DNA of 64,000 nucleotides from Rhododendron vialii (lineage: Eukaryota > Streptophyta > Magnoliopsida > Ericales > Ericaceae): the NCBI RefSeq assembly GCF_030253575.1, contig NC_080560.1, forward strand, positions 13,306,001 through 13,370,000, given 5' to 3'. Position 1 is the stretch's first letter, and every line of letters begins with the position of its first letter. This document shows positions 17,233 to 59,259 of this stretch, piece after piece. Both the position numbers and the translations under genes were made by a program. A model generated the notes under the pieces. That model was not told the DNA's origin. It worked only from the letters and a program-made list of their open reading frames with translations, and did no database searches.

Positions 17233-17235
<3 letters not shown>
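16855..17235. mobile_element. Foldback MITE inside the hAT-like repeat
   Basis: The left arm carries GGGACACCC, AAATACCTAAAAAAACACC and GATCCGAACCGTTCAATG. The right arm carries the near reverse complements GAGCGGCTCGGATC, AGGTGTTTTTTTAGGTG and GGGTGTCTCCG. The arms are about 150 bp each. TA dinucleotides surround it, including the long run that follows. Confidence 0.65.

Positions 17236-17274
<39 letters not shown>
17235..17274. repeat. (AT)n microsatellite
   Basis: About twenty AT units follow the right end of the foldback element, and a shorter AT run borders its left side. The element may have inserted into an existing AT tract. Confidence 0.9.
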
Positions 17275-17808: not shown

Positions 17809-18109
17809 TTTCATATGTGCAAATAGCATCACTCAAATAGAAAATCAATTTCCTCTGCGCAATTTGTCTAAAAACAATTAAGAGGTACGTTTTGGCGCAA
17901 AAAAGAAGGCCACGTTAGCTGAGCTGGGTAGAACCCACCAACAAGTGGGCTCCAAGTCAGCCACAGGTGGGTCCCCTATAACCTTCGGCGGATTCCAAGT
18001 CTCATGCAATACCATTATTAGATCCATTCGTTCGAATCCTCTGTGAGTTGGCAATCTTTTGGTTGATGACCTCTGTATCCCTCCTCCCTCTTTCTTCACA
18101 AAATGTCTA

Positions 18110-18205: not shown

Positions 18206-21200
18206 ATGAGGGAGGTGATAAGCATTCACATAGGACAGGCTGGGATTCAGGTGGGTAACTCCTGCTGGGAGCTCTACTGCCTTGAACATGGCATTCAGCC
18301 CGATGGGATGATGCCTAGGTACATCTATTTTCGACATTCTCCATTCATCTTTTTTCATATATAGAGATTTCTGCATCTGGGTTTTTGTGTATCAGTAGAT
18401 GCGGCCTGTTTTTCGATAATCTACGTTTGTGTACTCGTTTTTTGCTAACTGGGTTTAAATTTGTCTTTGTGGATCTGAAAATTTTGAATCTGTTTATAGA
18501 CTATAGTTGAGCTCTGTTTTTCTTAGTTTGTATGGTTTGTTTGTTGGCAGTTGTTACTCGTAAGCTGTAGCCTTGGAGTAATTATTTGGGGGTCTTGTTC
18601 CACACATTTTGCTGTAACTTAGTACTGCGCCCAGCAGAAATGTGTGGTGTATAAGAGTTTTGGGTCACCACATGGGCCGTGGCGGTGCCCCAAGATCGCC
18701 AAATATATTTGCGTAGCCTCGGGTCTGAGATCGTGGGTGAGGTCTAAGTTCTGTTTTTTCTCCATGTATTCAACCCAAAAGGTTATGTATTAGGTGTGGT
18801 GGTTGGGGCCTGGGCGGGGGGGCTCATGTTTTTTTGGTGGTAGCAAGCTCTTCTTCATTGTATTTTCGGGCGACTTTGAGTAGATTTCTCTGGTTTTTAT
18901 TTTCAAATGAATAATTGTTTGTGTCATTTAGGTTGGTTCATGGTTTTCGGTAGTAGTGTGTTCTTCTGCATTTCATTGTGTAGATTTCTCTTGTTTCTAT
19001 TATTGGTTCCAAACAAATTATTGCGTTTGTCATTTACGTATATGAACTTTGGGATGTACTCAATCAGACCAGTAGTACACTACCAAAATGAGTTGATCTC
19101 ATTCTAACCAAGTAACCTCGTAGGCACCATAACTACTGGAAATGGTCATACTTTAATCTCTTTTCGCACTTGCAAGTTGAAGTATCTTTTGCAGTGAGAA
19201 CTAAGAAGTTGGAATGGTCACTGCTTATGTATCATTTTGACTTTATGTCACCAGATGCTCCACATCTGAGTAAAAAGAGGCCACTTGGTAGGATCAATGA
19301 AGTCATATCTCAAAAATCTTCCTCGTCCCGTTGATTCCAGTTTGGACCTTTTGCATCAGGATGTTAGTTTAAACTTGTTACTTGCACATCTAAAATCGCC
19401 CTTTCCATTTTATGGTTACGTGTGTCACTATTCTGTAACAAGGTAGTATATGGATGGTTTCCATATGAGTATTCCCATATGTGACTCTTAATTGAGAGAT
19501 CAGGATCAAGACCATCAAATGTCATGAAGGAATCTCTGTATTTGGTGAGTCCTTGAGTCCTTCGATGACTTGCCCCACATATATTTACCATCCAAATGGC
19601 GAATATGGTTATTTTTATCTGTCGGAAACAAATTCAGCAGCTCTTTGTTTTCCAACCTTCTTTGGGCCTAATGGGGTTTATCTTATGTGCTTGCAGTGAC
19701 ACCTCATTTGGTGTTGGACACGATGCCTTTAATACCTTCTTCAGTGAAACCAGTGCTGGAAAGCATGTGCCTCGGGCAATATTCCTTGATCTGGAACCAA
19801 CCGTGGTTGATGAAGTTAGGACTGGGACCTACAGACAACTTTTTCACCCAGAGCAACTTATTTCTGGCAAAGAGGATGCCGCCAATAACTTTGCGAGAGG
19901 ACATTATACAGGTAACCTTCAATCTGCGATTCAAATGTTAATGGTTTCTGTTTTCAAAATAAATCCTGGAGATTACATTTTAAGGAAAACAAAAGCCCTT
20001 GTTGCTTTAATTATTCGTTCATTTGCATCTGAATCGGTTTTAGAGTATAGCAAACTGTACTTCTAATATATATGCTCCCAAAAATGGGCTTTTCCAGAAG
20101 TAAAGCTCATAGATTATGTTTTGAGACCGCTATCTAAACAAGGTTGTCTCTGGAAAGTATACTGCAAACTAATTCTGGAAACAGAAACCAAATAGAGTCT
20201 ATAATTTCGTTGGACATAACTTGCTAAAACTGTTTTGTTTGTTATGCGCTGCAGTGGGGAAGGATGTCATTGAGATATGTCTTGACCGAGTGAGAAAATT
20301 AGCAGACAACTGCACTGGTTTGCAAGGGTTTTTGGTGTTTAACGCCGTTGGTGGTGGCACTGGTTCTGGATTGGGGTCATTGCTTTTGGAGCGCTTGTCT
20401 GTAGAATATGGAAAGAAGTCAAAGCTTGGTTTCACCATCTATCCTTCACCTCAGGTACTTCCTTAAGACAATAACTAGAATGACATGAAGTACAGAAAAT
20501 TTGTTGCTAAGACAAGTCAATTCTTCTCCACAAACTAAGGAAAAACCTTTTTGTGTCCCCCCCTCGCCTTTCTTCTTCAGTAAGAATAACACAAAAGTTC
20601 TATGATTTCAAATGCATGGTAGATAAATTTTCTTACATTTTACTCTAATTTCATCAGAGATGATTTTATGAAGAGAAAATGATTTTATCCTCTCTTTTTT
20701 GGGAAAAATGATTCATGCAGCTTTTGAGGTGAAGTCACACGCCTAGGTAACTAAGTAATATGAAGTGTATAAGCATGAGGGACCCTCAATTCAATAGCTA
20801 GCATTAGGTTTGAGTTCTACCCAAGACCATTTGACACAGCTAACCCTGATTGAACACTTTAGCGCGTTAGACATATCTATAGAGTTAGAGTCTTCGCATG
20901 CTGTAAAAATTTGCTGAAGATTTTGCTTCCACTATTAGTTGGAAAAAACTTGCTTATCCAAGACAGAACAGAGAGAAAAGGGCAAGAAAACATAATAAAT
21001 TCTTGTGACGATTTTATCCAAAATCTCCAGGTTTCAACTGCGGTTGTGGAGCCTTACAACAGCGTATTGTCCACTCATTCCCTCCTTGAACACACAGACG
21101 TTGCTGTGCTCCTAGACAATGAAGCTATATATGATATCTGCAGGAGATCCTTAGACATTGAGAGGCCAACTTACACCAACTTAAATCGCTTGATTTCTCA

Positions 21201-22812
21201 AGTTATCTCCTCGTTGACCACTTCCCTCAGGTTTGACGGAGCCATCAATGTGGACGTTACAGAGTTCCAAACTAACCTGGTGCCATATCCTCGCATTCAT
21301 TTCATGCTCTCATCTTATGCACCAGTGATATCAGCTGTAAAAGCATATCACGAGCAGATATCCATACCAGAAATCACCAATGCCGTATTTGATCCCTCAA
21401 ACATGATGGCCAAATGTGACCCAAGGCATGGGAAGTACATGGCATGTTGTTTAATGTATCGTGGAGATGTAGTGCCCAAGGATGTCAATGCTGCTGTTGG
21501 CGCCATTAAGTCTAAACGGACTGTTCAGTTTGTTGACTGGTGAGTTTCCTTCACAAAATTATGATACTTGTGCAACACAATTTTACTCACCATGTCTTTG
21601 TTTCTGATATGCTTTTCAAATGGTCTTCCTGGGGTAAATAATTTCAGTCTGCTCAAACCTTTTCCAAAATTTGCCGGTGTAGGTTTACCCATCATATTTG
21701 ATGCTAGTGCAATGTTCATATTGTGCTTTCTGGTCTTCCTGTATCTTATGTTTCTTATCTACTGTGCATGTCAAGGGACACAAGGTAATAATGTCAACTT
21801 CTGAAACAGCCACAATTTAGATGTTTGAGCAATGTTAAGATTTGTATTTCTTCTATAGTCTATTAGTACCAATTCTAATGATCCTAAATTTGGGAAAATG
21901 ACGGCCAAGGACATGTTTTGATAATTAATACCCGCCAAGGACGTTTTCAGCATTAACAATTGTTCGTAGCATGTCCGTGGAGGGTATTAACAATCAAAAC
22001 ACGTCCTGGGCTGTCATTTTCCCTTTTCTTTGGTGTGTGGCTGTGTGCATAGATCCCAACAGGTTTTAGTGGCAGATCTACGGTGAGCAACCACTGCATG
22101 TCAAACGCATCAAACAAGTAATGTATGGTTTAAAAAGAATTTAGAACGAACCCACTAAAAAGAACCAGCAAAGTTTAATCACAACATAATTGGAAATGGG
22201 TTTTTAAATTGTTTCTTCCAGAAAATGAGGTCTTTCATCACCGTTAATTCTTTTCGTTCGATTACTGACTACAACTCTGGTGAAATGTATTTTGTTCTTC
22301 CTATTGGTTAAGAATTGGATATTTATGGTTTGTTTATTATCTTGATTTGAAAGAAAAGGAAATACTAGGTAACGACTTCCAACTGCTAAAATAGTCAGAT
22401 AGAGAAATGGTGTGTGAGAACCAAAAAAGAAAATTCTAGTATACCTATATTGCTCCCAATGCCCGTGATCCTAAAAATTTTGGTATCTGCAAATATCAGG
22501 TGCCCCACTGGTTTCAAGTGTGGCATCAACTACCAGCCACCAACAGTGGTACCTGGGGGCGATCTTGCAAAGGTGCAGCGTGCAGTTTGCATGATAAGCA
22601 ACAACACAGCGGTGGCAGAGGTTTTCTCCCGAATTGACCATAAATTCGATCTGATGTATGCCAAGAGAGCATTTGTCCACTGGTATGTTGGTGAAGGCAT
22701 GGAGGAAGGCGAGTTCTCAGAAGCACGGGAGGATCTCGCTGCTCTTGAGAAAGACTATGAGGAAGTTGCAGCGGAAGGCGTCGAGGAGGAAGATGAAGGA
22801 GAAGACTACTGA
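18206..22812 (+). CDS. TUA: Alpha-tubulin
   Basis: Alpha-tubulin pairs with beta-tubulin to form microtubules. Five exons are 18,206-18,318, 19,697-19,911, 20,255-20,454, 21,031-21,539 and 22,500-22,812, giving 449 residues. The start is [20 protein letters not shown], carrying the MREV/MREI-type N-terminus. The tubulin GTP-binding signature GGGTGSG is in exon 3. [37 protein letters not shown] and [16 protein letters not shown] are all intact. Residue 40 is Thr in [12 protein letters not shown], not the acetylated Lys of other alpha-tubulins. The C-terminal tail is acidic and ends EDEGEDY with the terminal Tyr. The sequence is nearest the plant TUA3/TUA5 class. Introns of about 1.4 kb and 0.96 kb lie after exons 1 and 4. 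Confidence 0.95.
21892..22023. mobile_element. Small foldback MITE in the last alpha-tubulin intron
   Basis: GGGAAAATGACGGCCAAGGA on the left and its near complement at 22,004-22,023 form arms of about 45 bp, sharing TGTTTTGAT and TTAATACCC. I found no clear target duplication. It lies between tubulin exons 4 and 5. Confidence 0.65.
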
Positions 22813-27889: not shown

Positions 27890-28447
27890 GGATGATGCTA
27901 TGGTGTCTCCGGTCATTTTGGGGACACCGTAATTTTTGGTATAATTTCACCATTATGAGCATAACTAAAATTCATTACAAGCATAACAGAACCCAAATAA
28001 AGCATAACCAAGGAATATTCAAAAAACCAATTAAGGTATTTGGATGCCCTAGGCCAAGTGGTGAAATAATGCCCTACATAGAAGGAATTTTTTTTTGCAA
28101 AAAAATACCCTACCAGGATTTAAACCCAAACATCTTATGTGGAAAAGCAAACACTCTACCACTAAACCACCAAAGAAGTTTATATTATAGTTGCACACAG
28201 AAAATATATATACTTATCTAGAAATGGGTGCCCCATTTTTTGCCCAAAATGTGGAGGCCCAAGGCGGCGGCCTCTTGGGCCTCCCCATTGGGCCGGCCCT
28301 GAATCAAGTTATGCCTTGTTATGGTTCTGTTATGCTTATAATGGTTTTGGTTATACTCATAATAGATTTTGGTTATGCTCATAGTGGTTTTGTTATGCCA
28401 AAAGTTACGGTGTCTTCAAAATGACCGGGGACACCGAAGTCATTCCC
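27890..28447. mobile_element. Mutator-type MITE, short relative of the 14.65-kb element
   Basis: The left end GGATGATGCTATGGTGTC and the right end (inward GGGAATGACTTCGGTGTC) share CGGTCATTTTG and GACACCGTAA with the ends of the element at 34,744-49,398. Subterminal GCATAAC/GTTATGC words occur on both sides as they do there. Flanking AAATGTTTA and AGATGTTTA match at eight of nine positions, though this reading leaves two extra bases at the left end. The interior lacks transposase and holds a tRNA-like sequence, so this is a non-autonomous derivative. Confidence 0.8.
28105..28172 (-). repeat. tRNA-like head of a probable SINE inside the MITE
   Basis: Read on the minus strand, GGTGGTTTAGTGGTAGAG resembles a tRNA 5' part with a polymerase III A box. 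It is followed 30-odd bases later by GGTTTAAATCCTGG, a B-box-like word. The following bases run into a T-rich stretch. The surrounding GGCCCAAGGCGGCGGCC-type sequence may belong to the same insertion. It is either a tRNA-derived SINE or a decayed tRNA copy. Confidence 0.5.
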
Positions 28448-33640: not shown

Positions 33641-33829
33641 GAACCCTAGGGGATTGTATGTTATGGCGAAGATGATGTCAGATTACGAGTTTGCCCAGGT
33701 TGAGGTTTGATCTTGGATCACAAGGGTGGTGGGTTTTATGGTCAATTTGATTAGGGGCCGAGGAAAGCAATACCAGAGGTTCAAACGGAAAATCTATGGA
33801 TACATATATTCATGTACATACATTACGTA

Positions 33830-34150
33830 CGTACGCATTTTAGACTCGTTTCGGATTTTATAAAAATGGTTCGAGTCGTTCATTTTTGTTCAAAATAGTT
33901 TTTTCACGGTCCGTGTAAAAAATCAATTCAACTCGATATCGGTAAAGGCATTTACAAAATATCCAACTTTCCTTTAAAATTCAGGCATCGATTCTATAGC
34001 AAAAAATGGATGTTTGATAAATCTTTTACCGATGTCGGATTGAGTTAATTTTTACAGAAATTGTAAACAAATTATTTTGAACAAAATGAAAAGCTTAGAT
34101 CTTTTTTGTAGGACTCCAGACGGATCTAAAGTGCGTATATACGCGGTATA
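33830..34150. mobile_element. Foldback MITE, same family as 17,492-17,808
   Basis: Arms with AAAAATCAATTCAACTCGAT and the near complement ATGTCGGATTGAGTTAATTT are separated by about 120 bp. Outer arms carry GTACGTACGCATTTTAGA and its partner near 34,125. It sits upstream of RPS28. Confidence 0.6.
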
Positions 34151-34743
34151 TGTACATGAGTGTATATATCTATAGCAAGACTCAGGTCCAAAACTATGAG
34201 GACTCTATCTATAATCACAAACACTTAGCGTATACAAATTCACTCACATCAAGTGTGGGACCGTAAGTGTGGGTAAGTTTGTGTGTTTGTGTTTGCATAA
34301 GTGTTTTTTGTGGTTCTACAACCATTGTCATTTGTGGGAAAAAAATCCAAAAGAACCTAAACTATGGAATTTGATTTTGTACCCTCAAGTAGTCCCGAAT
34401 TTTTTTTTAAGACCCATTTTGGTTTTGCTCATGAAAAATGCTAGAACTGAGTAAAACCACACTCATTTACGCACTCACGCTTACATGTGTGTGGGCCTAC
34501 ACACACTATACACATCCATAGAGCCCACATCTTTGTGAGTATGAATGTGTAAATGAGTATGGTTGTAGAATAATTGTTCACTGAAAGTTTGGCTTTTCCC
34601 GAACTGTTTTGGTTTTTTTTTTTTTTTGATCCGCTAACTATTTTGGTTGAAGTTCGAACTGTTCGGTTCAAGTTGAGTATTTGTTTTTTTTTTTTCCTCC
34701 TAAAATCTGTGTTTGTAAATCTTATCAAATACTAGTAGTGTTT

Positions 34744-34850
34744 GGATGATGCTACGGTGTCCCCGGTCATTTTGGGGACACCATAATAATTGGTATGACA
34801 AAATCATTATGAACATAACCAAAATCATTTAGTGCATAACCAAGGTACAA
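34744..34850 (+). repeat. Left terminal inverted repeat of the Mutator-like element
   Basis: It pairs with 49,290-49,398. Similarity is strongest in CGGTGTCCCCGGTCATTTTG and GGGGACACC, then weaker through CAAAATCATTA and CATAACCAA words. Confidence 0.9.
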
Positions 34851-35099
34851 CAAATTTCCCGGATACTTAAAGACCCGGTGAAAAAAAAAAGAAAAAGAAA
34901 TTAGCCCCCTTTAACCACGGTTTAACCACGGTTAAGGGAGTTTTATCCCCTACATCTATCATCCTCTACATCTTTTTCCTAAATCATTCCCCTTTAACTA
35001 GGGAAAATCCCTCTGCACTTCGTTCATCTCCTCATCTCCCAGACTCCCACCCAGAAAGAAAACCCTCACCCTTTAACCACGTTCATCTCCCACCCATCA

Positions 35100-35142
35100 T
35101 CGACTCCTCGTCTGGTGTCGAGGAATGGATTGATCTGAGCAA

Positions 35143-35180
<38 letters not shown>

Positions 35181-35370
35181 CTCTTCTCTTCCTCTGTCCC
35201 CTCCTCCCTACCGTACATCCACCCCGTGGACGTCGCCGCCGCCCCCACAACAAACAACAACGGCGTCGGGCCGCCATCGGACAACCCGGTTTCAATCCAA
35301 ATCCGAAACCCACCTTCAACGAGAACAAGGCTGAGATCCTGAAGCTCCCCCACGCCCACGTCAAACCCAG
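35100..35370 (+). other. GC-rich segment in the left arm, possible captured gene fragment
   Basis: This block is markedly richer in G and C than its surroundings and has an open plus-strand frame ending NPKPTFNENKAEILKLPHAH before a possible splice donor region. It follows a CT tract at 35,145-35,177, as in a plant leader. I do not recognise the protein. Capture of host exons is common in this transposon class, so that is the likeliest explanation. Confidence 0.35.
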
Positions 35371-35821
35371 TATTTGTTTTTGGGTATAATCTGATTCCCT
35401 ATTTTATTTCTGAACAAATTTTATTTACGGCCCATATTTATTGAAATCTTCTAATTTGTGTTAACTTTAGGGCAACACAAATTAACGATTCTAGCACTCC
35501 TATGTTGTGACTTGTTGTTGCTGCTACTTAAGCGTGGCCTGATGATGAAACTAGTACCCAGAAAATAATAGCAGAATTTTTTTATATATTTGTGTATTTT
35601 TTCTCAATGGAGACAATAGTAGCAAAATTTCACGGTACTCTTTTATGTATTTGATTTGAAAGGTTTATTTGAAGTTTGACGAGTTTTTACCCATTTTAGG
35701 GTTTTCAGATCAGTTTACACGCACTTTAACTAATTTCTATGAGTCAAAATTTTGACGTCTGCTAACAGAGGTGATTAATAGAAACGACAGTTAAAGTCCT
35801 ATACGAACTTGCCTTACAAAG

Positions 35822-36327
35822 ATAAGATTTTATCTAAGAGATTTCGAACTTGAGACCCAAGAAGAGCAAACTCTTAATTCGTATACATTGCCGCCCCTGT
35901 TTGTCCATGACTTTTTTTTTTTGGAAGTCATGTCTAGTGAGTTAGTGCTTAGAAACTTTTATGAGTAGGTCACGTAGACACCGACATTTGTACTTGCGTA
36001 TTGAACAACATAGTGTGCTTACATTTTGTTCTTGTTATATCTGTTAAGAAACAATGTGTGAAAAAAACACCAAGAATAAGATGTTATCTAAGAGATTTCG
36101 AACTTAAGACCCAAGAAGAGCAAACTCTTAATTCGTATACATTGCCGCCCCTGTTTGTCCTTGAATTTTTTTTTGGAAGTCATGTCTAGTGAGTTAGTGC
36201 TTTGAAACTTTTACGAGTAGGCCATGTAGACACCTACATTTGTACTTGAGTATTGAACAACATAGTGCGCTTACATTTTGTTCTTGTTTTATCTGTTAAG
36301 AAACAATGTGTGAAAAAAACACCAAGG
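35822..36327. repeat. Tandem duplication, period 254 bp, in the element's left arm
   Basis: The unit starting ATAAGATTTTATCTAAGAG recurs at 36,076 as ATAAGATGTTATCTAAGAG. The two copies are nearly identical through AACAATGTGTGAAAAAAACA. It includes GATTTCGAACTTGAGACCC, which holds a B-box-like word on the minus strand. The duplication looks recent. Confidence 0.9.
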
Positions 36328-37084
36328 GGGTGCAACCAGCGTATACAAGACCAATAGATACCGATGTGGTAAACTTGTTTTTACCATACATTATATTTAA
36401 GGTGATGGTTTAGTTGAATGTTGGTTCTCTCTAGACTTTGTTGCGCCATAAATAACAATCCAATTTCTTTGAACTGTAAAGAAAGACAGCATAAACAATC
36501 TGGTGTATTGTGTTTCCATAAAAGTCATATGATTGGCGGTGAGGAAGTGGGAGAAGAGTATTTTTCTTTGTTTGTTACACTATTTGATCACACAAATGCC
36601 CTTATATGTTGTTGGTTAAGGTGTTTGCATATAAGTTGTTTGTCAAAATGTATTGTTGATTCTATAGTGGTCAATTATTATTTGTAGGTATTCCAAATTT
36701 CAGAATCTTGATGTTAGTGTGAGATATAGTAATGGTGTTTATGGTCCATTGATAATTTAGTCTCAATTTTGTCCAAATAATAATCAAACAACTCTCCGAT
36801 TGTTTTTTTTTTTTTTTTTGAGAAATAGTAGTCATGCAAATGTTTGACATCGAAGTCTATAATATTTGTGTAGATTTGGTGACATAAGTCTCTTGAAAAC
36901 CCATTTAGAAGGCATATGAGGTGTCACGAAATAGATTTATTTTGTTTATCACTATGAAGCTGACAATTGTGTAAGTAATGCACTTTAATTATAGGTCATG
37001 TGTATGCAACCTATTTCACCTATGTATGTAACTAGTCTTATGGATTAAAAGTTATGACAATGTGGTTTATTATTTAGGGGTACA

Positions 37085-39416
37085 ATGGAAACTCCCAATA
37101 ATAGTACCAACAGCAAGGGTGTGAAGGTAGATTCATATGATTGGGAATCCAATTCCGACTCTTGTTCTAGTTCGGAAGATTCGCAGAGTAATATATTTGT
37201 TTCTGAAGATGAAGATAATGATGTGGATGGGGAAAAGGAAGGGGAAGGGTCAGTTTCCAGTGTAGATGATAGTTTTCGCTTGCTCACTGATACAGAGATT
37301 ATGGAAATGAAATTTGTTTCTGAAGATGAAGCTGGTCAATTCTACAATGCATATGCCAATGCAATTGGTTTTAGCGTATGCAAATATAAAAGTAGACCAC
37401 AAAAAGGCAATGAAATGTAAGTAAGGTGGAGGACTTGGGTTTGTTCTGGGGAAGGTAAAAGAAATAAGAAGCATTTAGAACGCACTGATCGAAAACGACG
37501 TCATAAAGCTGAAACAAGAACTGGTTGTGGTGCTAAATTCCGGGTTTGTCGTATGAGCAAAACCATGAAAAATTATGTTGTCACAGAGTTTGTGAGTACC
37601 CACAATCATCCCTTAGCAGCACCACATTGTGTTCCCTTTCTGCGATCGCATAGACGTGTGGGTGATGCAGACATAGCTCAGGTAATGGCCATGCGGAATG
37701 TTGGCATGAAGCCAGCGGAATGTAGGCATGAAGCCAGCGCAAATTATGGACTATATGACATGTCAGTCTGGGGGTTTCCATAATGTGGGGTTCACTGTAA
37801 AAGATTTGCGTAACAAATTGCATAGCATTCGTAAAGAAGAAATAAAAAATGGGGATGCTGAGGGTGCATTGGGATACTTGTCTGCTCAAGTAAGTAATGA
37901 TCCGTTATTTTTCTTCAAGTACACTGTTGACGAGGATGATCGGTTGGAGACACTTTTCTGGACAGATGGGAGGTCTAAGATGGATTATGCTGCATTCGGA
38001 GATGTGTTAGTTTTCGACACGACCTATCGAACCAATGCTTACAAGAAGCCATTTGTCATATTGGCAGGTGTGAGTAATAACTTTACAACGACCATATTTG
38101 GTTGTGCGTTGTTGTCGAAGGAGACGGAGGATACGTACAATTGGGTTCTTTCAACGTTTTTAGAGGCTATGGATGGTAAACGGCCCATCTCGATGGTCAC
38201 AGATGGTGATTTGGCGATGCGCAATGCAATTAGAAACATTTTTCCTGATGTAAGGCATCGCCTATGTTCGTGGCATCTGGAGCGAAATGCCGCTAAAAAT
38301 GTTCACATACCGGAATTCGTATCTGACTTTACCATTTTGATGCAAATGGAATGTGATGTTGAAGAATTTGAAACTCTTTGGGCTGATATGGTATCACACT
38401 ACGGCCTAGAGACAAACGCTTGGGTGGTAGAGATGTATAACAACCGCGAAAGATGGGCCGAGGCATATCTTCTCGGCCATTTCTTTGCAGGGATGAGGAG
38501 CACTCAGCGCTGTGAAGGTATGAACCGTTATTTAAATCGGTTCTTAACAGTAAGGCTACGGCTTTTTGAATTTGCCCAACAGTACCACCGTGGTCTAGCT
38601 AGGATGCGAGTTGCCGATGCAGAGGCTGAGACGGCAACGGAGCATAGTACCCCTGTTTTGATCACGCAATTGAAAAGCTTGGAGAAGAATGGAACCGAGG
38701 TGTACACACAATACATATTCAGATTCTTTCAGGATGAAATACAGCGTGCATTTGCATTGATTGTGGCGCGTCGTGTTGATGAGATGGAGCGTCGGTTGTA
38801 CTTCATTGAGATGTACTCGCATCCAAAATCCAATTGGACGGTCGAGTATTATCCAATTGATAGCAGAATCAATTGTAGTTGTTTGATGTTTGAGTCTTTT
38901 GGTCTACCTTGTTGCCATATGATTGTGGTCATGAAATATGAACATCTACCGACCATTCTCCTTAGTTTAGTCATGCGAAGATGGACAAGGTGTGGTCGAC
39001 CTCTGACCCAACAACCAAATGTTTGCCAAATTTCTCGCAGTATATCCCACATGGCTAGGTATGGGATATTGAGTTCGGGTTACAAATTGATGTCATTCTA
39101 TGCATCGCATGCCCAGGACTCATTTGAAGATGCTAGGCAAGTGGTACACGAAATGACATCCTGGATCAGGAAGCGTTGGGAGATGGGAAAGAATAAGGAG
39201 TGCAACACAGAGATTGGTAAATCAAGTGATGGCCAAATTTTGTTTGGTGTGGGCGATCCACCTGTGGTCAAGACCAAAGGCAACCCTGGGAAGAAGTCCA
39301 GTGCCCAACATTCTCGGAATCCTAGGAAATGTAGCCACTGCAAGTGCCGAGGTCACGATAAGCGGACATGTCCAAAGTTGTCATCAAAGCATCCAATTGA
39401 CGACCTTCCTATTTAG
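37085..39416 (+). pseudogene. FAR1-type MULE transposase, degenerate
   Basis: The encoded protein would excise and insert the element. In order it has an acidic N-terminus (METPNNSTNSKG, Ser/Asp/Glu-rich), a FAR1-type DNA-binding domain (FVSEDEAGQFYNAYANAIGF to FVSTHNHPL), the MULE catalytic core (FDTTYRTNAYKKPF, SMVTDGDLAMRNAI, CSWHLERN, STQRCEGMNRY), a SWIM zinc finger (CSCLMFESFGLPCCH) and a CCHC knuckle (CSHCKCRGHDKRTCP). Catalytic Asp, Asp and Glu are present. Two changes break the frame: an in-frame TAA at 37,418-37,420 inside the DNA-binding domain, and a 22-bp tandem duplication near 37,697-37,740 that shifts the frame. The rest, 37,728-39,416, is open. It would be similar in length to FRS proteins. 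Confidence 0.92.
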
Positions 39417-40808
39417 CCGTATTTTTATATTTGGCTAAAGTTGATGTACTATGGAACTTTAAAACTCAAGGCCTCAATGTATGAGCATTATCATGAGAAA
39501 TGGATTTCTTTAACTTATTCACTATTGTAGTAGTTAGTAAGTTCAATTACTAAGTTCAGTTGGAATATTCGTATTGCAGATGTTTATCACTCATTTCCCT
39601 TGGCCTAGTTGATGTTGATCTGTGTTTGTGTGTTAATCTATGTCAGTTAGTGTCTTAATCTGTTGAAATGGTTTAGGTCTTTTCATAGGTTGATGTAGTT
39701 TGTTTACCTGTGAAAAATAGTTTTGTTGATATGTCACACAGATATTGTTGCCCCATATGCCAAATTTTGTTTGGTGTGGGCTTCTCCACTTCTTAACAAT
39801 GGTAATAAAACTGTCCCCTGTAAGATAGTCACTCCACTCTTTAAACATACTTAGGGAGATTCTTTAAGATTGAAGATAGTATTCTTTGCCAAACTTGCTT
39901 CCTATCGTACTTTATGAGCAAAAACATAATAAAGAAAACATTTGTCTAGTGTAGTAGCTCGAGAGAAATTAAACGTATCCATCTGCTCGTGTACATTTTG
40001 ACTGCAGCATTTAACACCTAGAGCAGAGAGAGACTATAGTCTTTGGGCATTTTATGTTTTTGAAGTTCCAAAAATCCTCTACTCGTTGGCCAGCCCATAA
40101 AGTAGATTTTTTTTATTTATCATGAATTATCAATTTTCTTATAGCCCTCGGTTTCTGCTGTATTCCCTATCCTATCATAAGTTGGCTGCTAAGTGCTAAA
40201 CCATTAAGACTTCTAACCAGTAAAAGCTAATGAATCAATATGCAGTAAAATAGTTATGCTAAGAGAACCAAGAAAAGTAGCATTAAGAAAGTCTATAATC
40301 AGTTCATTTGTTGAGGCCCATTTGAGAAATCAACTCAGTGGCTCAAGTGGTAGCCTAGTGGATATGTTGTCGCATTGTTTTGCACTTGCCATATTGTGGT
40401 TTTCACATCAGTCTACAGTTGCTTTAGTTCCTTTGAGTACTTACGGAATCTGTTTGAAATAGTTACAGTTACAGTTTGGAAATGTATCTTTGGACTAAAA
40501 TGTATCTGCTCTTTTGCAGGATTAGGAGGACAGGAGAAATTTTGGCATATGAATACCCATCATGCAGGCATTAATGAATACCCATTAAGTTTGATCACCC
40601 ATATGGAACAAGGAAATTACATAACCAAAATATTGCACCTAAATAAATACGAAACAACATAGCATTAGGTTCCAATCATGCGCCATATAATACAAAATGG
40701 AATACCCTAAAAAGTTAAAACTACCATACAGAACGATACTTGATAACCCATGTAAAATCAGGCCCCCAAAAAACTTAACCTTTACAAAATATACCTACAG
40801 ATTGTTAG
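39417..40808. other. Spacer between the two convergent element genes
   Basis: About 1.4 kb separate the transposase stop from the stop of the minus-strand protease gene. It is AT-rich with no gene and presumably contains both polyadenylation regions. Confidence 0.5.
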
Positions 40809-43800
40809 TTATATACGAATCACGTGACCACCTGCGTACACAAAGCCCGTTTTACCTCTTTCTGCCTTCCATGCCTCAAATTTTTTTAAAACCTCCAAGG
40901 CATCCCGATTATTTTTGTCACCACACAATTCCAATAACAACCTTGGCCTTTCGGTATTGTCCATCTACAAAACCCAAAGCTAGCTTAGAAATCCAACACT
41001 ATCACAACCAGTTAAATACAACATAACGATGTTACTTTACGAGCACTAACCTTGTGTACACCGGATGGGAAATTGAACCCTTGCATGAATTTTATAACAA
41101 ATAGCCCACAATCATACCTAAAAATGTGCAAAAAGGAATAAAGTAAACCACTTCAAACGCAAGTAACACAATTAACACAAGTAACCTATAAAGCACAGAT
41201 ACGGATACGGGATACGACACGATACGGATACGGCAATATGGCAAAACCTAAAAAAAAGGATACGAATACGTCGGGGATACATTTTCATAATTATTAATCT
41301 CATAGGCATAAAAGTGAAGCCTTAAAAAATAAAAGAGTAGTTGAATTGCCAATACCAAGCATTAACATAAGATTATGTTCAATAAATTACCCGTCCTCCT
41401 CATGTTGCAAGGGTTGCTTTTCAACATTAGCAATGTTAAACTTCGTGACATCAACCTGATAGAGCTCTCCATATTGGAAGAGCAACGCGCGATGTAATCC
41501 CTCCAGCTAATCGTAAAAACAAGTAGTTAGAATACAAACCGGGCATATCGTAAAACATGGTCTAAACGAGGTGTGCCATACCACTCGTTGTGTCAGTTTC
41601 TTACGAAACAAATTGGATCGAGTAGCGAGCTTTGAATCAAAAATATAAACCATATGAATGCCCATGTCTATTTTGATGCAAAACCGGTGGCTCCCACGAT
41701 CATTTGTTGGTATGTATATCTACGATCAAAGGTAAACAATCATGATTCAAGACCAATTGAAATCTTATTTTATAATTGATTTGCAAAAGTACTTAGTTCA
41801 TCATTTTATAACTTTACCATAGAGCATGAGCTAAGATCAGCAGTAAAATTTGTATCTCCAAAGTAGCTACCGCATAACTTCTTCAAATCACAATCATTGA
41901 GGTTGGGATTGTCTAATATCTGCCTCTGCAAATTTACGGGAATAAAGAGACAAATTTATGGGAATAAAAAACAATGCCAGTAGTATAAGAAACAAAGGGG
42001 ATATTAATTATACTCACTGATACAGTAACTAGCAAATACCACATGAAGTGGCGCTTGTCTGGATAAAGCAACCTTTCCGCATTTGTCATTTGCACGGCTA
42101 CCAAATTTAGAATCTACAACCATACATGATAGGTAACCACATTGGACTAAAATGCAAAAAGTAATAACAAATTGAATACTTCAACTTAAACCAAGTGGCA
42201 AAATCATATTTACACAAACCGTGTCTAGTATCCATACTCCGGGTTTCAAGCTGCACAATTCAGACCGGGTTGCAAAAAATCTTTCGGTGGAAAATAATTT
42301 CAAATGCACGTAAGAATCCCTACAAGAATGATTATGGTAATGAAAACCAATCCTCATAATTTACAAGGGAAAACAAAGGAAAACACATAATTAGAAAAAT
42401 GTACCCAGTAAATGGATCGCAAGGATCAAAGATGAATGCCGCGAACAACTTTTCAAGGTCATTTAAGGGTACCGAGGTTGACTTCCTTGCATAATCAAGT
42501 GTTTCTCGAATATACGGCTATAAAAGAAACAAATAGAAAAGAAAAATAGGTTAGACTAAATACTAGAATGTAGAAGGGGAATTGGGAATCACTAGTAACC
42601 TTGGTTTGTAGATTCAACTGTTGCACACCAGCAAACTGCAAAGACTTGAATTTTCCATAGTGTCCACAAAACTGTTTAATTGGACAGGAAAAACAATATA
42701 AGAACCATGAATTGGAAATACATTGTATACAAGGGACAATAAATGTAAATGATATTAAGATTCATACAGTGGGAACGTTGACATCCACGTTGTCCACAAT
42801 TTGATGTTGGTCCGCAATAATCATTGACTGAGATTTTGCTTGTTTGTTAGGAGGGTTCCTCTTCTTAAGACCATCCTTCGTAAATGGGGAACGTTGGAAT
42901 TGGCTTTTCTTCAACTCATTAGGCTGTCGCAACCGCGGTGGTTCATCATACACTTCCACATTATCATTAACACAGAAAAACGGGACATAGTTGGCATTCG
43001 GCAACTTTTTTTCCCTACCTCTACTCAAACCACCACGCGACTTAAAGCCCTTTACCGGTGAAGGTGAACATACAGCCACATCCATGTCCTGTTGTATCTT
43101 CCTCTTTCGAGTGTCGGTACCTCTACTCAAACCACCGCGTGACTTAAAGTCCGATACTGCTGAAGGTAAAACTAGAATTTCATCCACCTCGAATTGTATC
43201 CTCCTCTTTCAAGTGTTTCGAGTGTCAGTCCCCATGTTATATTGATCAAACTGGTTAGGATCGGGGGTTTTAAACTGGTTGGGTATTGAGGTTTCACTTT
43301 TGTGTACTCCCGTTAATTGGGGAGAGGATTCTCCTGAATGGTGGACTTGGTTCAAGTCCATTTCTTGAGTCGTTTGTGGTTGTAGCTGAGACGGCATTTC
43401 AGAGCCATGATCAAGGGTTTTAAACAAGTTCGGACTTGAACTTTGACATGTATGCACTTGCGTGAGGAGGGGAGAAGATACTCCTTCAAGGTGGACATGG
43501 TTCGGGTCCATTTCTTGAGCTGTTTGTGGTTCCATCTTAGAAGGTGTTTCAGCGCTAAGGTGGCTGGCCAGCCATGGATTTGTTGAGACAGCCTTGGATG
43601 ATTGGTTGAGTGCAGGATTAGGGGTTTGAAACAAGTTCGGTGTTGAAGTTTGACATGCATGTACTCCCACGAGGAGGGCAGAGAATTCTCCTTGAAGGTG
43701 GACATTGTTTAGGTCCATTTCTTGACCCATTTGTAGTTGTAGCTTAGAAGGCGTTTCAGAGCCAAGGTGCTTCGCCATTAATATATTTTGACGCAACAAA

Positions 43801-45328
43801 AGACCTGCTATAGTTGCAAGAGTATTTGTCATCACAGTTACATCTCCAGTTGAAATTTGGGACACTCCGCCTTCATTGCCACTTGCTTTTTCCTCTAGTG
43901 TAAAATGAACCACCACCCCCTCCCTGTCATAACCTCCAATTTGGTCAAACCGATGTAAGACACTCTTAATTTCAGAATCACCCCAAGCAAGCAAAGAAGG
44001 AAATTTTCGAACATAAGGCATAACTGTAGGCCTTGGAGAGACACAATCCAAGTAGAAAACCTGCATTATGAGACAATTAAAGTAATAATGCATAACAAAT
44101 AAATAACCAAAGTGAAATAAGGAATATGAAATGCGTTAATGCAGAATCACTCAATACCTACCACCAGGAGGAATAGGCACCCGCTTGGTTGTGCATGATC
44201 CTTATTGCGTTGGTCCAGTATACCCTTGCATAAGAAGTCTAGGGTCAGGTTCGCCCAATTCTAATTGGCCATTGCCGCAACATCACTGACAACATTAATA
44301 AGGGATCGAGTAACACCCGACTTTGTGGTTGGGCATAAAAAATATCCTAAGATGTACAAGGCAAATTTCCTCTTGAAAACATCATCTACTTCCTCCGTTT
44401 TCTCTAAGTACTCTCTCAACTCTTTCAGTTGGACTACCCCATTCGTCATTCCAAGGTTTTTATAAATTTCTGAAAATTCTACCGACGTATTTCCCTCCAA
44501 CTCAATAAGGTTGCCTTGTGCATTAATGCCCAAACACTCATGAACATGGGAATCAGTGAGAAGGAATGTCTGCCCATGAACAGTAAGTGAACGAGAAACA
44601 GGATCAAATTTATGCACCAACCAATTACATAGCAGATGGTTAAGAGCCGTACACCTCAATTCTAATATTCCACCCAACCCAATAAGCTGAACAGCACGAC
44701 GTTGATCTGGGCTTAACTTTTGTACTATTCGAACGATGGACTTTAAGGAAATACGGTTCTGTATTTTTTTCTGCAAATTTAACAAACATCATCAAATAAG
44801 TTGGCATTCCAAAATCAGGTCAAATCATGTTCACCTAGACAAGTTCCAACAATTTGTACTCACTTTTCTGGGTTTTGGCGGAAGTACAGCTTTTTGCTTG
44901 GTGAGTTCCTCTTTGGCCAACTAAGCCAAATCTTTGTACTTTTGCCTGTGTTCGTTCGACAAGTTTTTCCATTGCTCACCAATGTCCCTCTTCGTCTGCA
45001 ATACGTACCAAATCATGCACCAATGATCATTCGTCATCATCAACATTAGATCAAATAGATGCAATTAGATGACAAAATGTTAAGTTAAAATTATAATTTT
45101 ACCTGATTTGTTATTAAGGTACCAGCATCTTTTAGATTGGCTATGGTTTCATTGCTACTTGCACAAACATAAAGTAGTAGTCAAACATTGTCATAGGAAA
45201 ATACATAATTAAACACCAAATCAGTGTTAAATGAATTAAATTTTCATTAACAAGGAATACTTATATAGAATGAAGGCCGATGGCACCCTTCCTTTCAAAG
45301 CATACTTCTGAATGATCTCGTCTGTCAT
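40809..45328 (-). pseudogene. HMG box - plant mobile domain - Ulp1-like protease gene of the element
   Basis: About 14 exons read downward from an ATG at 45,328 with consistent splice sites. Exons 1-3 (45,328-45,261, 45,157-45,103, 44,995-44,864) spell an HMG box: RVPSAFILYNSNETIA, then TKRDIGEQWKNLSNEHRQKY. Exon 4 (44,770-44,162) is the aminotransferase-like domain: SIVRIVQKLSPDQRRAV, ELRCTALNHLLCNWLVHKFD. Exon 5 (44,060-42,768) is a repeat-rich linker. Exons 6-14 hold a C48 protease core: VWILDT, TNDRGSHRFCIKIDM, VYIFDSK and YDCGLFVIKF, with His, Asp and Cys in place, ending VYAGGHVIRI. In-frame stops occur in exon 3 (TAG), near the end of exon 4 (TAG) and in exon 5 (TGA), so it is degenerate. 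Ulp1 enzymes process SUMO. The element's own use is unknown. Confidence 0.82.
42768..43900 (-). repeat. Internal peptide repeats in the linker of the Ulp1-like gene
   Basis: Three imperfect units of about 50-70 residues follow each other: SETPSKLQLQMGQEMDLNNV, AETPSKMEPQTAQEMDPNHV and SEMPSQLQPQTTQEMDLNQV. Each is followed by a VHxC/S...NLF/NQFKTP segment. A second small repeat, FKSRGGLSRG, occurs twice further on. Confidence 0.85.
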
Positions 45329-45789
45329 GCTGAAAATACATAATTCATCATGGCCGTGTTACAAGCAAACATAATATTTAGATGAAAATGTAATCAGCTT
45401 AAAATGTTTAATCATCAATTGGAAATGGAATCGTACAACTTCAATTGGAAATAGAATCCCTATTTAGTGCAAGGACATGCTAGTGGCACGAGTCACTAGT
45501 TATTAAACACCCTTATAGCTACAAAGAATTGAATAGTCCCGAATGGACCTTCTTGCTCGTGCCTTAGGGCTACCCCTTCCTAATAAACTGGATGGAGATC
45601 AAATCTTTTAGTGACATTCTCAAAAGTTAGCAAAAAGAAATAACCATCTGCCTACATATGATAAAACATAATAGTAACAAAGCATTTCATCTCCAAATGT
45701 AAGTTTCTAGGATTACTCAAAGTGTGCAAATCCATGAAGCTCAAAGTGGTAACTAAATATACTATCACATTGTGAAGAGGGGACTTGAA

Positions 45790-47330
45790 TGCCTCATTCA
45801 TTTCATACTCTTCCTTCCTCTCCTCCACAGCCCTTGCAGAATTTCCTTTGATTCCCTCCCCACTGGCTTGCTCTGAGAGAATTTTACTAGGCCTCGGCCT
45901 CATGACAATTTTAATTGGTTCATGTTTATCATTTTCCAACTGTTTACCAGGTATTTCAGATAAACAGGTTGCAGGGTATCTACTATCTGCCAATTTCTTA
46001 ACCACAATTCTAGTACCCAGACCATCTAAGACATTATCCTGAACCATAGTCTGCAAACCATAATGTTGAGCAACACGGTGTGCCGCAAGACGAAGGTATG
46101 AGGTGGGGAAATGTTGGAACTCAAACTGCTGCTGGTCGGAATTCTTCAGAAACTTCTGAACATCAAGTTCCATTTGCAGAACTAACATAAACGAGCATAT
46201 AGATAAGATAAATAACTACACATTAAATATCCATAAGCACATAAATATTTTTTAACTAACTACCATATAACCTACCAGGTATCCCAATTCCTAAGTTCCA
46301 GCTACCAAAAGCTCTATGATTCAACTGAAGACATACAACCACAACGGCTTGATATTTGAAAAAGAATACCCATCTAAAAGTTCAAAACCTGCAAATGTTG
46401 CTTACATATCCATTTGGACCTGAACTAGTTATGGGTCCCAGAGCAGGTCCACCCGTTGGTGCCAAAATGACATTGCCAAAGTCATTTTTTTCCAGCTTGT
46501 TACAGTGTCAAAAAGCCAATAAATATAGCAATATCGCTGCATCGGTTTGGTGCCATTTTAGCACAATCTCAAATCCATATTGTTGAATTAAACTCATCCC
46601 ATTTTTCGATCATAGGATTTGGCACATGGGTTGACTTGCTCTGAGAATTTCAACCCCAACTTCATTGCCCTCCAAAACCCTAACCCTAACCCTAACCCTA
46701 ATCCATACCAACCTATACAACCAGTCCAACTACCTGTATTTCAGATACATGCCAAAAAAACCCAAATTCAAAAGTCTAGGAAGTAACAGATGACCGAAAT
46801 TTCAGATACATGCCAAAAAAAACAAAAAACAAAGGAGCTATGACAGGAGAAATTAGGGCGAAATTGAAAACAGAAAAAAGGAGGACTCACTGGTGAGACG
46901 ATGACAAGGGTTTTGAAGAGCCTCAACCAAGAAAGGATCGACAGCGACCACCCCATCGTTTATGGTTGGTGGAGCTGAATCCATGGCGTTTGTATCATCA
47001 CGCGGAGGTAGTGTGTGCTCGAGCACATGTGCATTTGTATCATCACGCGTTTGATACGACAAATATTCCTACCACGTAGCCCCGAAGATCGAAACACACG
47101 GCCGTACAAAACTATTTGGATGAATTGTAGGAGAACCCTAACTATTCTAATGAACAAAGAAACCAAAAAAAAGTGCAGGAAAATGAAAAAAACCCTACGA
47201 AACCCTATTTACAGTAGCAATGGTTACCTTGTCACGAAGCAGCGATCCACAATAGAAGGTAGAACCAGAATGGGGATGAAGATACGGACTGAGAGCGACG
47301 GAGAAGAAGAAGATTAGGACGTAGGGTTTT
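45790..47330 (-). pseudogene. Captured 5' fragment of an R3H-domain protein gene
   Basis: R3H-domain proteins bind single-stranded RNA or DNA. A CT-rich noncoding exon (about 47,330-47,228) with a GTAACC donor is followed by coding exon 1 (46,984-46,891), which begins MDSAPPTINDGVVAVDPFL and continues EALQNPCHRLT. Exon 2, from 46,181, reads QMELDVQKFLKNSDQQQFEF, FPTSYLRLAAHRVAQHYGL, LDGLGTRIVVKKL and ARAVEERKEEYE. This matches the N-terminal half of plant R3H/SUZ proteins. The match ends near 45,790 and the C-terminal half is missing. Because introns are present, the copy came from DNA, not from mRNA. It points the same way as the Ulp1-like gene just downstream. Confidence 0.85.
46673..46703. 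repeat. Short (CCCTAA)n tract in the captured R3H intron
   Basis: Four CCCTAA hexamers in a row lie within intron 1 of the R3H fragment. The plant telomere unit has one more A, so this may be a simple repeat or a telo-box cluster. Confidence 0.8.
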
Positions 47331-47539
47331 TTCTCCGTTAGACAATTATTCCCTACAGCAGCGTGTTTTGTCAAAAAGAAAGATGAGTTGTTTTGGGCCC
47401 TTCGATCTTCTCATTAATGTGTTGGCAGCTCCATATTAAAAGCATCACATGATCCTAACAGAGAAATCCTCATAGAGGATCCGGATCCCAAAATTTTTGC
47501 CCGTAAAAAAGTCTGATTTCAAAATTTTGGGGGATTCTC

Positions 47540-48720
47540 CTTGTATGGGCGGGACCAATTGCATACATAATCGGAAAATCGAACATACAATATTGAATCT
47601 GCATTCCGATGAAAAGGTTTTCAAAATCCGTTAGACCCAAAATTTTATGAGAATGATTAAAACAACAAGTACAATAAAATTAACGGTATCGATCGTCGTG
47701 ATAGTGATGCGGTCGTGTGACTACTGTACATTAGACTACAGCACAAGATCTTGGTTCATAATCAAAAAAGTGTAATGTATAGATTTTAAAGGTGGTTGGC
47801 AACTAATTTTTTTTCAAATGCTCGATCTAAACCGATGGGATTTAACATCTTGTTCATTTAATCATTGTCACCAAAATCGGTGATGATCGGATGTTGACAA
47901 CCACATAATCGGAATACATTTGGTGCTTCCAGAAGCGTTAAAGTCCCATACTGCACCACTCTTGGGCCGCCTCGGCTATTTTTTTCCGAATCGGGACCGT
48001 CTATACTTTACGTAACAAAGATTAGAATACTTTTGCCAAAAATGAATTAAATTTCTTATCAATACATACTTGATCGGATGTAAAATGTCATTATAATAAT
48101 GAATCTACGTTCCAATAAAAGGGCTTTCTAAACCCAGTAGTCCCAAAAATTTACGAGAACAATTAAAACACCAATCAAAACAATCTGAACGGTATCGATC
48201 ATTGTGATTGTGTTGCGATAGTATGAGTATTGTACATTACACAAAAGCATAAGACCTTAGTTTAGAAACAATGAAATTCAACATATAGATTTTAAAGGAA
48301 GCTATTCAATAATTTTTTCTGATGACCGATCTAAACCGTTAAGATTGCACATCTTATCGATTCTATATTTTTCGCCAACTTTAGTGATGATCGGATGTCG
48401 GCAACCACATGATTGGAACACATTCGATGCTTATGTAGGTATTAAAGTCCTATAATTCACAACTCGATGACCGCTTGATCAATTTTTTAAAAATCGGAAC
48501 CGTCTATCATTTCCGTAAGAGAGATTAGATCATTCTTGCAAAAAAAATAAGTAAATTGCTTATCGTTACAAACTTTATCGGACATAAGTTATCATTCTTA
48601 TGTTGAATTTTTGTACCAATCAAAGAGTTTCATAATCCGGATGGAGCCCAAAATTTTCATAAATAACTAAATCAACAAGAACAACCAAATTAACGGCCTT
48701 GATTATTAAAATAAATGATT
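47540..48720. repeat. About 2.3 tandem copies of a 505-bp repeat in the element's right arm
   Basis: Landmarks recur in order: GAATCT at 47,595, 48,101 and (as GAATTT) 48,605; ACGGTATCGATC twice; GATGATCGGATGT twice; CCGATCTAAACCG-like words twice. Copies are perhaps 75-80% alike by eye, so the duplication is old. No coding frame is evident. Confidence 0.8.
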
Positions 48721-48839
48721 TATTGAGGTCCATTATATTTTACTGTTGAACATAATCGCAAGACACATTTACAATTTAAATTTTTTTCCCACTTAACCAT
48801 GGTTAAACATTTTCAAATAAAAAAATAAATGAAAAAATG

Positions 48840-49370
48840 ACAGGTGGGTATTGTTATGGTTTTAGAGGTTGTTGTTATACCTTTTAGAGGTTATTGTTAT
48901 GCTTTTATGTGGTCATATTATGCTTCTTTTACTTTTTACTTTTTGTTATGCCTTTTATGGTTTTTGTTATACTTGTTATTGGTTTTGTGTTATGCTTTTC
49001 AATGGTTTATGTTATGCCCACATGGTTATAACTCAACAATTATGTCATTTAATGGTTTTGTTATGCCTATTTTGGGTTAATGTTATACCTGTTTAGGAAA
49101 TGTTATACTCATGTTATGCCATTAAATTCATGTGTTATGCCTTTTTGGGTTTACTTGTTATGCTATTTAGTGGTTTTGTTATGCCAAATTTGATGACCTG
49201 TTAGGGTGACCGGTTAGACCGGTTTTTTTTGGTCAAACTGGCATGCGTGGCACAATCTCAACCGTTGGATCGGAGTTTTGGTTATGCCTTGTTATGGCTT
49301 GGTTATACATATAATTGGTTTGGTTATGCTTGTAATGATTTTGTTACGCCAAAAATTACGGTGTCCCCAA
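48840..49370 (+). repeat. Right subterminal region rich in GTTATGC words
   Basis: GTTATGC, GTTATAC and similar 7-mers recur some two dozen times at spacings of about 10-40 bases between TGGTTTT-type spacers. The left end and the 27.9-kb MITE carry the complement GCATAAC. Repeated subterminal words in DNA transposons often serve as transposase-binding sites, which I infer here. Confidence 0.8.
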
Positions 49371-49398
49371 AATGACCGGGGACACCGAAGTCGTTCCC
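49290..49398 (-). repeat. Right terminal inverted repeat of the Mutator-like element
   Basis: It is the partner of 34,744-34,850. The outermost 12 bases have diverged, then CGGTGTCCCCGGTCATTTTG is exact. The target duplication GTAGTGTTT follows directly. Confidence 0.9.
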
Positions 49399-49407
49399 GT
49401 AGTGTTT

Positions 49408-58789: not shown

Positions 58790-59021
58790 TAGTAGAGTGT
58801 CCCACCAAATGTCTCCTCTGGCGGCACAACCAAGTAGCTACTAGCTAGTTAGAGACGCATGCCGGGCAGGTTGTTTCCACGAGCAGTGTACTCCATATGG
58901 TAATCGCGGGTGGGTGAGTCACGCGTTTTAGCAGCACAAACTTCAAGACTCTTGTCGGACCGTTTATTCACAGTCTCTTCCAAAATTAATTGGCGATAGA
59001 GAGTTTCGATTAAATCTTTTA

Positions 59022-59257
59022 CTCCCTCCGTTCCATTTTTATTGTTCATTTTCGTTTTTCGTGTCGTTCTTTCAACGCTTATATCTCCCAATCTATAATG
59101 TTTTTCATAATTTTGAAAACTTTGTATTATAGATCTAATCGAGAACTATCAAACAAGATCCATATTGCATATTTTTGAAAATTCATATTGGAAGATATAA
59201 GCGTTGAAAGAATGACACGAAAAACGAAAATGAACTATAAAAATGGGACGGAAGGAG
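59022..59257. mobile_element. Stowaway MITE, well preserved
   Basis: CTCCCTCCGTTCCATTTTTA at the left and TAAAAATGGGACGGAAGGAG at the right are inverted repeats that continue for over 70 bp, including GTTCATTTTCGTTTTTCGTG. TA flanks both sides (59,020-59,021 and 59,258-59,259). At 236 bp it is of typical length. Confidence 0.9.
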
Positions 59258-59259
59258 TA

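Follow-up and report, generated by a model that had tools for sequence, protein, structure and literature searches.

Locus and element ends

We analyzed a 64,000-nucleotide stretch of the Rhododendron vialii genome (C4:13306001-13370000; hereafter the window, to whose positions coordinates refer unless a contig is named), in which a single Mutator-like element (MULE) runs from its first base at 34744 to its last at 49398, a length of 14,655 bp. Its interior holds a transposase gene and, convergent with it on the opposite strand, a multi-exon gene with predicted HMG-box, plant mobile domain (PMD)-like and Ulp1 parts, which we call the putative helper gene. A piece of a host R3H gene and an array of short motifs lie toward the right end (Table 1). 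We refer to this element as the window copy, and to its sister copies elsewhere in the genome as copies A to G.

The 9-bp sequence that flanks the element occurs just twice across the whole window, both times abutting an element end. Such abutting identity arises by chance in 3 of 200,000 random position pairs with zero slack; allowing 5 bases per end raises this to 38 of 50,000. The terminal inverted repeats (TIRs) are about 110 bp long, with 80.4% identity over 102 aligned bases (positions 9-110, each read inward; E 2e-23); because 16 of 300 random 120-mers from the window also have an inverted match at E<=1e-10, the TIR match by itself is weak evidence. Each end also contains a palindrome; of the 16 ends belonging to the eight paired copies described below, 7 have a fully paired stem (9/9) and the others have fewer paired bases. 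The 9-bp duplication, the MULE transposase domain and the long TIRs place the element in the Mutator superfamily, for which target duplications of 8-11 bp are reported (PMC6446971). The initial annotation had described a MULE with a perfect 9-bp duplication and inverted-repeat ends of about 100 bp, containing a degenerate MULE transposase gene and a convergent, degenerate Ulp1-like gene. Its coordinates proved exact and its ends were recovered at slightly greater length. Both genes are present, convergent and broken (the former by one stop and a frameshifting duplication of 22 bp, the latter by three stops), although the Ulp1 portion forms just one end of the HMG-PMD-Ulp1 fusion.

Table 1. Features of the window copy, a short family member in the same window, and the sister copies in the genome
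Feature	Location	Strand	Details
Left target-site duplication	34735..34743	.	GTAGTGTTT; exact, abuts element
Left TIR, L-type	34744..34853	+	begins GGATGATGCTA; self-comparison, genome matches
Palindrome, left end	34756..34782	+	GGTGTCCCC-N9-GGGGACACC; 9/9 stem bases pair
252-bp tandem duplication	35822..36326	+	94% identical; upstream of transposase; self-BLAST, Tandem Repeats Finder (TRF)
Transposase gene	37085..39416	+	FAR1 DNA-binding, MULE and SWIM; Pfam, alignments to P0001, P0058, P0004
Putative helper gene	40857..45328	-	multi-exon, HMG-box, PMD-like and Ulp1; relative P0121, tblastn, 11 pieces
Ulp1 catalytic region	41075..41842	-	approximate
~150-bp tandem repeats	43257..43777	-	variable middle of helper coding part; self-BLAST
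PMD-like part	44036..44449	-	approximate, from P0121 residues 192-295; under Pfam cut-off
HMG-box exons	44861..45328	-	about 45328-45239, 45153-45097, 44998-44861
Host R3H-SUZ gene piece, captured	45803..46990	-	DNA match to C3 donor; Pfam; exon 1 coding 46984-46891, intron 46890-46182, most of exon 2, 46181-45803
Two diverged ~619-bp direct repeats	47586..48707	.	71% identical; upstream of helper gene; self-BLAST
Right subterminal array	48853..49328	+	19 same-direction GTTAT(G/A) motifs; 11/18 spacings 20-23 bases
Right TIR, R-type	49289..49398	-	begins GGGAACGACTT reading inward; self-comparison, genome matches
Palindrome, right end	49360..49386	-	GGTGTCCCC-N9-GGGGACACC; as in left end
Right target-site duplication	49399..49407	.	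GTAGTGTTT; exact, abuts element
Short non-autonomous member	27890..28447	+	558 bp; same L-type and R-type ends; self-comparison
Copy A	C1:39925132-39948310		23,179 bp
Copy B	C1:5622260-5644175		21,916 bp
Copy C	C4:14016579-14032905		16,327 bp
Copy D	C1:15470592-15477819		7,228 bp
Copy E	C12:28549106-28563008		13,903 bp
Copy F	C4:38157800-38165464		7,665 bp
Copy G	C8:7522484-7529396		6,913 bp

The transposase gene

The transposase gene has Pfam matches to the MULE (PF10551, 3.9e-26), FAR1 (PF03101, 5.1e-11) and SWIM (PF04434, 1.2e-6) domains, and spans all 760 residues of its relative P0004 despite being broken twice, by a stop codon at 37418-37420 and by a frameshifting 22-bp tandem duplication at 37688-37739 (TRF). 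Over 568 residues, the open stretch 37710-39413 and the R. vialii protein P0001 are 100% identical; P0001 is annotated as FAR1-RELATED SEQUENCE 5-like, and its gene model passes over both interruptions. Of 313 protein matches, 120 of which were listed, the best 14 are all from Rhododendron. The uninterrupted reading frame of an autonomous element is absent from the window copy and present in copy A on C1, where the transposase covers 760 of 760 residues of P0004 in one piece with zero stops; the gene has one stop in copy B, is broken in C, is reduced to 149 residues in D and is missing from E, F and G. With FAR1 at the N terminus and SWIM at the C terminus, the predicted protein has the layout described for the plant Jittery group (group 36), namely an N-terminal FAR1 domain and a C-terminal SWIM or CCHC domain (PMC6446971), and on that layout assignment to the FAR1/Jittery type is the best reading.

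The putative helper gene

Judged by its domain matches, the "Ulp1" gene is a fusion of HMG-box, PMD-like and Ulp1 parts. In its R. vialii relative P0121 the HMG box scores 6.8e-9, the PMD-like part (PF10536) 9e-4, which is below the cut-off, and the Ulp1 part (Peptidase_C48) 2.1e-12. In-frame stops of the window gene begin at 44923, 44263 and 43211; the first two fall on residues aligned to P0121, and the third lies in a stretch that is absent from the P0121 model and present in P0122 and P0123. In copies A and B the gene is stop-free before residue 1059 of P0121. The His, Asp and Cys positions of Ulp1 are kept in the window, with the residue after His altered (GSHRFC versus GSHWFC in P0121); P0121 holds all three motifs, and many helper gene models are without one or more of them. 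An AlphaFold2 model of P0121 has a mean predicted local distance difference test score (pLDDT) of 44.8 and is confident in the HMG part only, and a sequence search of the PDB with P0121 returned four sequences, every one HMGB1.

Protein searches, which scored just those candidates sharing most words with the query, were made initially with nine minus-strand open stretches joined together, giving 26 proteins, all from Rhododendron. A profile built from 14 sequences gave 37, including 29 from Rhododendron, six from Vaccinium darrowii and one weak match to a Castilleja retrotransposon. Five Vaccinium relatives were examined, of which P0152 has a PMD above the cut-off, and the HMG box is at or below the cut-off in four. 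By these similarities the family is present in Rhododendron, with related helper genes in Vaccinium. We note that three relatives from R. molle and R. simsii (P0128, P0129 and P0142) are annotated as having zf-XS and GRF zinc fingers C-terminal to the Ulp1 part, reflecting either domain swapping or gene-model fusion, and that other annotated relatives join the HMG part to an MRS2-like (E 0.03, weak), glycosyltransferase or P450 part, which may be captures or gene-model errors.

Sister copies in the genome

The 532.6-Mb, 13-contig Rhododendron assembly was searched with both ends. The left end gave at least 64 scored matches, nine of them full length at 89-100% identity, and the right end gave 83, ten of which extend past the ~125 bases common to the others. 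Eight full-length left ends, including that of the window copy, pair with a correctly oriented right end and delimit copies of 6.9-23.2 kb; the ninth, at C1:32555290, was left unpaired. Five of the eight paired copies have perfect 9-bp duplications, all of them different (GTAGTGTTT, AACCTTATA, TATATATAT, TTATTAATC and TAATCTGAA), and in copy F the duplication agrees at 7 of 9 bases. The sister copies are colinear in the interior parts that they have in common. The convergent order of the two genes recurs in copies A, B and C, with the helper gene partial in C, and both of the ~619-bp direct repeats are matched in each of the seven other paired copies.

Many other end matches are inverted pairs a few hundred bases apart, and the window itself contains a short member, with imperfect flanks (AAATGTTTAGT and AGATGTTTAAT, 9 of 11 bases agreeing) and an interior that has no match to the long element. 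So many short members, together with the frequency of inverted matches among random 120-mers, could suggest that ordinary host genes merely lie between two unrelated short MULEs and that the 9-bp match is a coincidence. That explanation would have to accommodate the rarity of exact abutting 9-mers among random pairs, the same combination of L-type and R-type ends around ordered, shared interior parts in seven sister copies, and five perfect, mutually different duplications. Because there are eight paired copies, five of them with such duplications, the element is not a composite of two short ones; the sister copies and the duplication statistics rule this out, leaving it with practically no probability.

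Kimura two-parameter (K2P) distances are 0.020 between the window copy and copy A, 0.020 between the window copy and a partial copy on C7, and 0.014 between copies A and B. For dating we used a substitution rate of 7e-9 per site per year, at which 0.020 and 0.014 correspond roughly to 1.4 and 1 million years. The initial annotation's interpretation of a full-length, fairly recent MULE with a transposase and a convergent Ulp1 gene is supported. Two of its other suggestions did not survive the comparison of ends and interiors across the genome. The length is not exceptional, since three of the seven sister copies are longer (16.3, 21.9 and 23.2 kb) and published MULE families of grapevine measure 14.4 and 17.7 kb (PMC2528002); and, because the interiors differ from copy to copy, the window copy does not define the cargo of the family. 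The fusion nature of the Ulp1 gene, the right-end array, the R3H capture and the sister copy with an uninterrupted transposase had all been missed.

Linkage and co-divergence of the two genes

Among tagged loci of R. molle and R. simsii, 12 of 26 distinct helper loci have one of the 27 tagged transposase genes no more than four locus tags away (9 of 19 before the profile search), whereas shuffled positions give a mean of 0.16 linked loci and a maximum of 3 in 20,000 shuffles. The transposases counted were taken from the 120 listed of 313 matches, and untagged proteins (R. vialii, R. williamsianum, R. griersonianum and Vaccinium) were left out. Transposase and helper distances are also correlated (r 0.795; 0 of 5,000 permutations) across 11 linked pairs plus the window, with 65 of 66 comparisons usable, several gene models partial, and one locus that shares its transposase dropped. 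As read from gene positions and protein distances, these data establish that the transposase and its convergent helper gene descend together.

They also bear on whether a MULE acquired the FAR1-like and HMG-Ulp1 genes from the host, where they had been domesticated. The name that NCBI gives the locus of P0001 would fit such an origin, and FAR1 and FHY3 are themselves domesticated transposases (PMC2528002). We consider it very unlikely, given that both genes are multi-copy, linked and co-diverging, that they lie between TIRs in copies at different sites, and that both are decaying in the window copy.

The right-end motif array

Random placement of the right-end motifs yields a mean of 1.27 spacings of 20-23 bases, and 0 of 20,000 placements reach the 11 observed. 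The only other cluster in the window of at least five motifs within 570 bases is at the right end of the 558-bp member. All eight paired copies have the array, with 19-22 motifs in the last 620 bases, whereas 400 samples from the interior average 0.33 motifs and never exceed 3.

From what is known of the superfamily, the FAR1-type transposase would bind the ends and cut and paste the element. More tentatively, the HMG-PMD-Ulp1 protein may act as a helper by binding the ~21-bp end array, and might counter host silencing in the way that VANC proteins of Arabidopsis VANDAL elements do. Another plausible role, to which we give appreciable weight while thinking it somewhat improbable overall, is in transposition itself, the protein acting as a second factor comparable to mudrB or assisting the transposase by bending DNA, with no part in anti-silencing. 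HMG boxes bend DNA, the ~21-bp motif spacing fits two helical turns and the gene travels with the transposase, all as expected of such a factor; the PMD-like part and the SUMO-protease-type domain point instead to chromatin.

A captured R3H cassette and other cargo

The window segment 45652-46215 matches R3H (2.5e-10) and SUZ (0.0065, below the cut-off) in Pfam. Outside the element, the best genome match is C3:5139002-5139421, at 95% over residues 1-140; for residues 137-187 the matches are to the element itself, in other copies. At the DNA level 45803-46990 is 94.0% identical to the C3 gene over 1207 columns, intron included. The C3 gene extends beyond the junction, and both exons recur in another R3H gene at C4:17.19 Mb, so the direction of transfer was from gene to element. 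The cassette is present in one of the eight paired copies, and the partial copy on C7 holds part of it (97.5% identity over 46023-47199). In the same slot, copies A and B share one other sequence, pieces of a third are common to copies C, D, E and G, and A and B match this third sequence over about 190 bases. No R3H protein was found among 162 annotated proteins collected.

The cassette lies in sense orientation with the helper gene and its splice sites are intact, as would be expected had it belonged to the element from the start and not been captured recently. There is very little to be said for such an origin, considering that R3H is absent from all seven other paired copies, most of them with different sequence in that slot, and that the cassette is 94.0% identical to a C3 gene running on beyond the junction, with both exons also present in the second R3H gene on C4. 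K2P distances to the donor are 0.044 for the intron, roughly 3 million years at the same rate, and 0.021 for the exons. A three-base TCA overlap at one junction and about 12 bases of filler at the other suggest that the piece most likely entered as a patch when a break or gap within the element was repaired. We also considered promoter capture and rejected it; the captured DNA starts just 6 bases before the ATG, and thus brought no donor promoter along. A short telomere-like AACCCT repeat is found at 46676-46701, within the captured intron.

Other cargo was sought in sister-copy sequence missing from the window, where 10 of 57 open stretches (9 + 48) were chosen by eye. Four have Pfam matches, to PSD13_N in copy E (2.5e-26), PRP39 HAT (1.5e-14) and NAM-associated (4.9e-9) in copy A, and WW in copy B (2e-4, below the cut-off); the other six have none. 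Host capture, as traced by sequence comparison, is demonstrated for R3H only.

Elsewhere in the window, pieces of a Tubulin C-terminal domain (Pfam) at 20863-22812 on the plus strand mark an apparent tubulin gene about 12 kb to the left of the element. Self-palindromic stretches of 240-446 bases with 70-92% strand identity, probably miniature inverted-repeat transposable elements or foldback elements, are found at 3190-3613, 14245-14639, 16824-17269, 17492-17809, 33794-34175 and 59020-59259.

Interpretation

We conclude that the interval is very probably one inserted copy of a FAR1/Jittery-type transposon of the Mutator superfamily, with an inferred helper role for the HMG-PMD-Ulp1 gene. Several observations weigh against this reading or its parts. 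Both genes of the window copy are broken, and copies E (C12) and G (C8) have no exact duplication at their nominal ends (1/9 and 3/9 bases agreeing); if the right end of copy G is set 15 bases inward, after GGGGAC, TACCCTGTT and TATCCTGTT agree at 8 of 9 bases, and transposition from a shortened right end is possible. No transposase lies near 14 of the 26 tagged helper loci among the 120 of 313 matches listed. The transposase could be the only protein that uses the array, HMG boxes usually show little preference for sequence in binding DNA, and the PMD falls under the Pfam cut-off in every scanned helper protein but P0152. Where a motif scan located the residues, the catalytic Asp is Tyr in 4 of 10 helper proteins and the His is Asp in 1 of 12, so that protease activity may have been lost in part of the family.

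A more ambitious proposal is that the helper is aimed at its own ~21-bp array while host cassettes are swapped repeatedly in one slot just upstream of the helper gene. We regard this combination as rather unlikely, but if true, it would mean that gene capture occurs in the master copies themselves, beyond non-autonomous Pack-MULEs.

Comparison with known systems

A long Jittery-like MULE with Ulp1 is a known class. The grapevine Jitvine-1 and Jitvine-2 families resemble the element described here in their Jittery-type transposase, their length (11.9 and 14.4 kb) and their multiple copies, and some Jittery-like families are reported to carry ULP sequence downstream of the transposase; TIR and duplication lengths of Jitvine are blank in Table 4 of that paper, and the text consulted does not mention an HMG box or PMD (PMC2528002). 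The new parts are the fusion helper gene, the array kept in all paired copies, and the donor-traced host exon cassette beside a transposase. We found no description of an HMG-PMD-Ulp1 gene in a MULE, or of this Rhododendron family, in a literature consulted mostly as titles and the starts of abstracts and including few subscription papers.

In Arabidopsis, KI-MULEs and KIU-bearing VANDAL elements resemble this element in having a Ulp1 gene reversed relative to the transposase, a VANC-type accessory protein with repeats, and motif arrays in noncoding DNA; they are described as non-TIR elements with a mudrA-type transposase, in contrast to the ~110-bp TIRs and FAR1-type transposase of this element (PMC2528002, PMC13317346). 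VANC proteins are reported to bind same-direction tandem motifs in noncoding DNA and to have repeat-bearing variable regions (PMC5735166, PMC10398659); VANC21 binds such arrays in noncoding parts of VANDAL21, and the variable regions carry tandem peptide repeats (PMC5735166). The putative helper gene likewise has tandem repeats in the middle of its coding part. We draw this comparison as a likeness of plan, with homology not implied.

PMD sequence is also found in other MULEs, often antisense as here (PMC5418596, PMC6446971), and has been suggested as a possible anti-silencing tool (PMC5418596). Those elements belong to MUDR-type groups, or carry transposase fusions in grasses and Amborella (PMC5418596, PMC6446971), whereas here a FAR1-type transposase gene is accompanied by an HMG-PMD-Ulp1 fusion. 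Ulp1 genes are common in plant MULEs, and the precise function of the domain was called unknown in a 2026 review (PMC13317346); with the fusion, the co-descent and the kept array, the anti-silencing idea becomes testable with one protein and one probe.

The cassette recalls Pack-MULE and Pack-TYPE elements, in which a host gene fragment is captured between TIRs and copied onward, as illustrated here by the partial second copy on C7. Pack-TYPE elements are defined as non-autonomous (PMC8903248), and the window copy differs in still holding a broken transposase gene. For the R3H capture the donor is known, the junctions can be read and the age can be roughly dated, all within an element that still holds a transposase gene.

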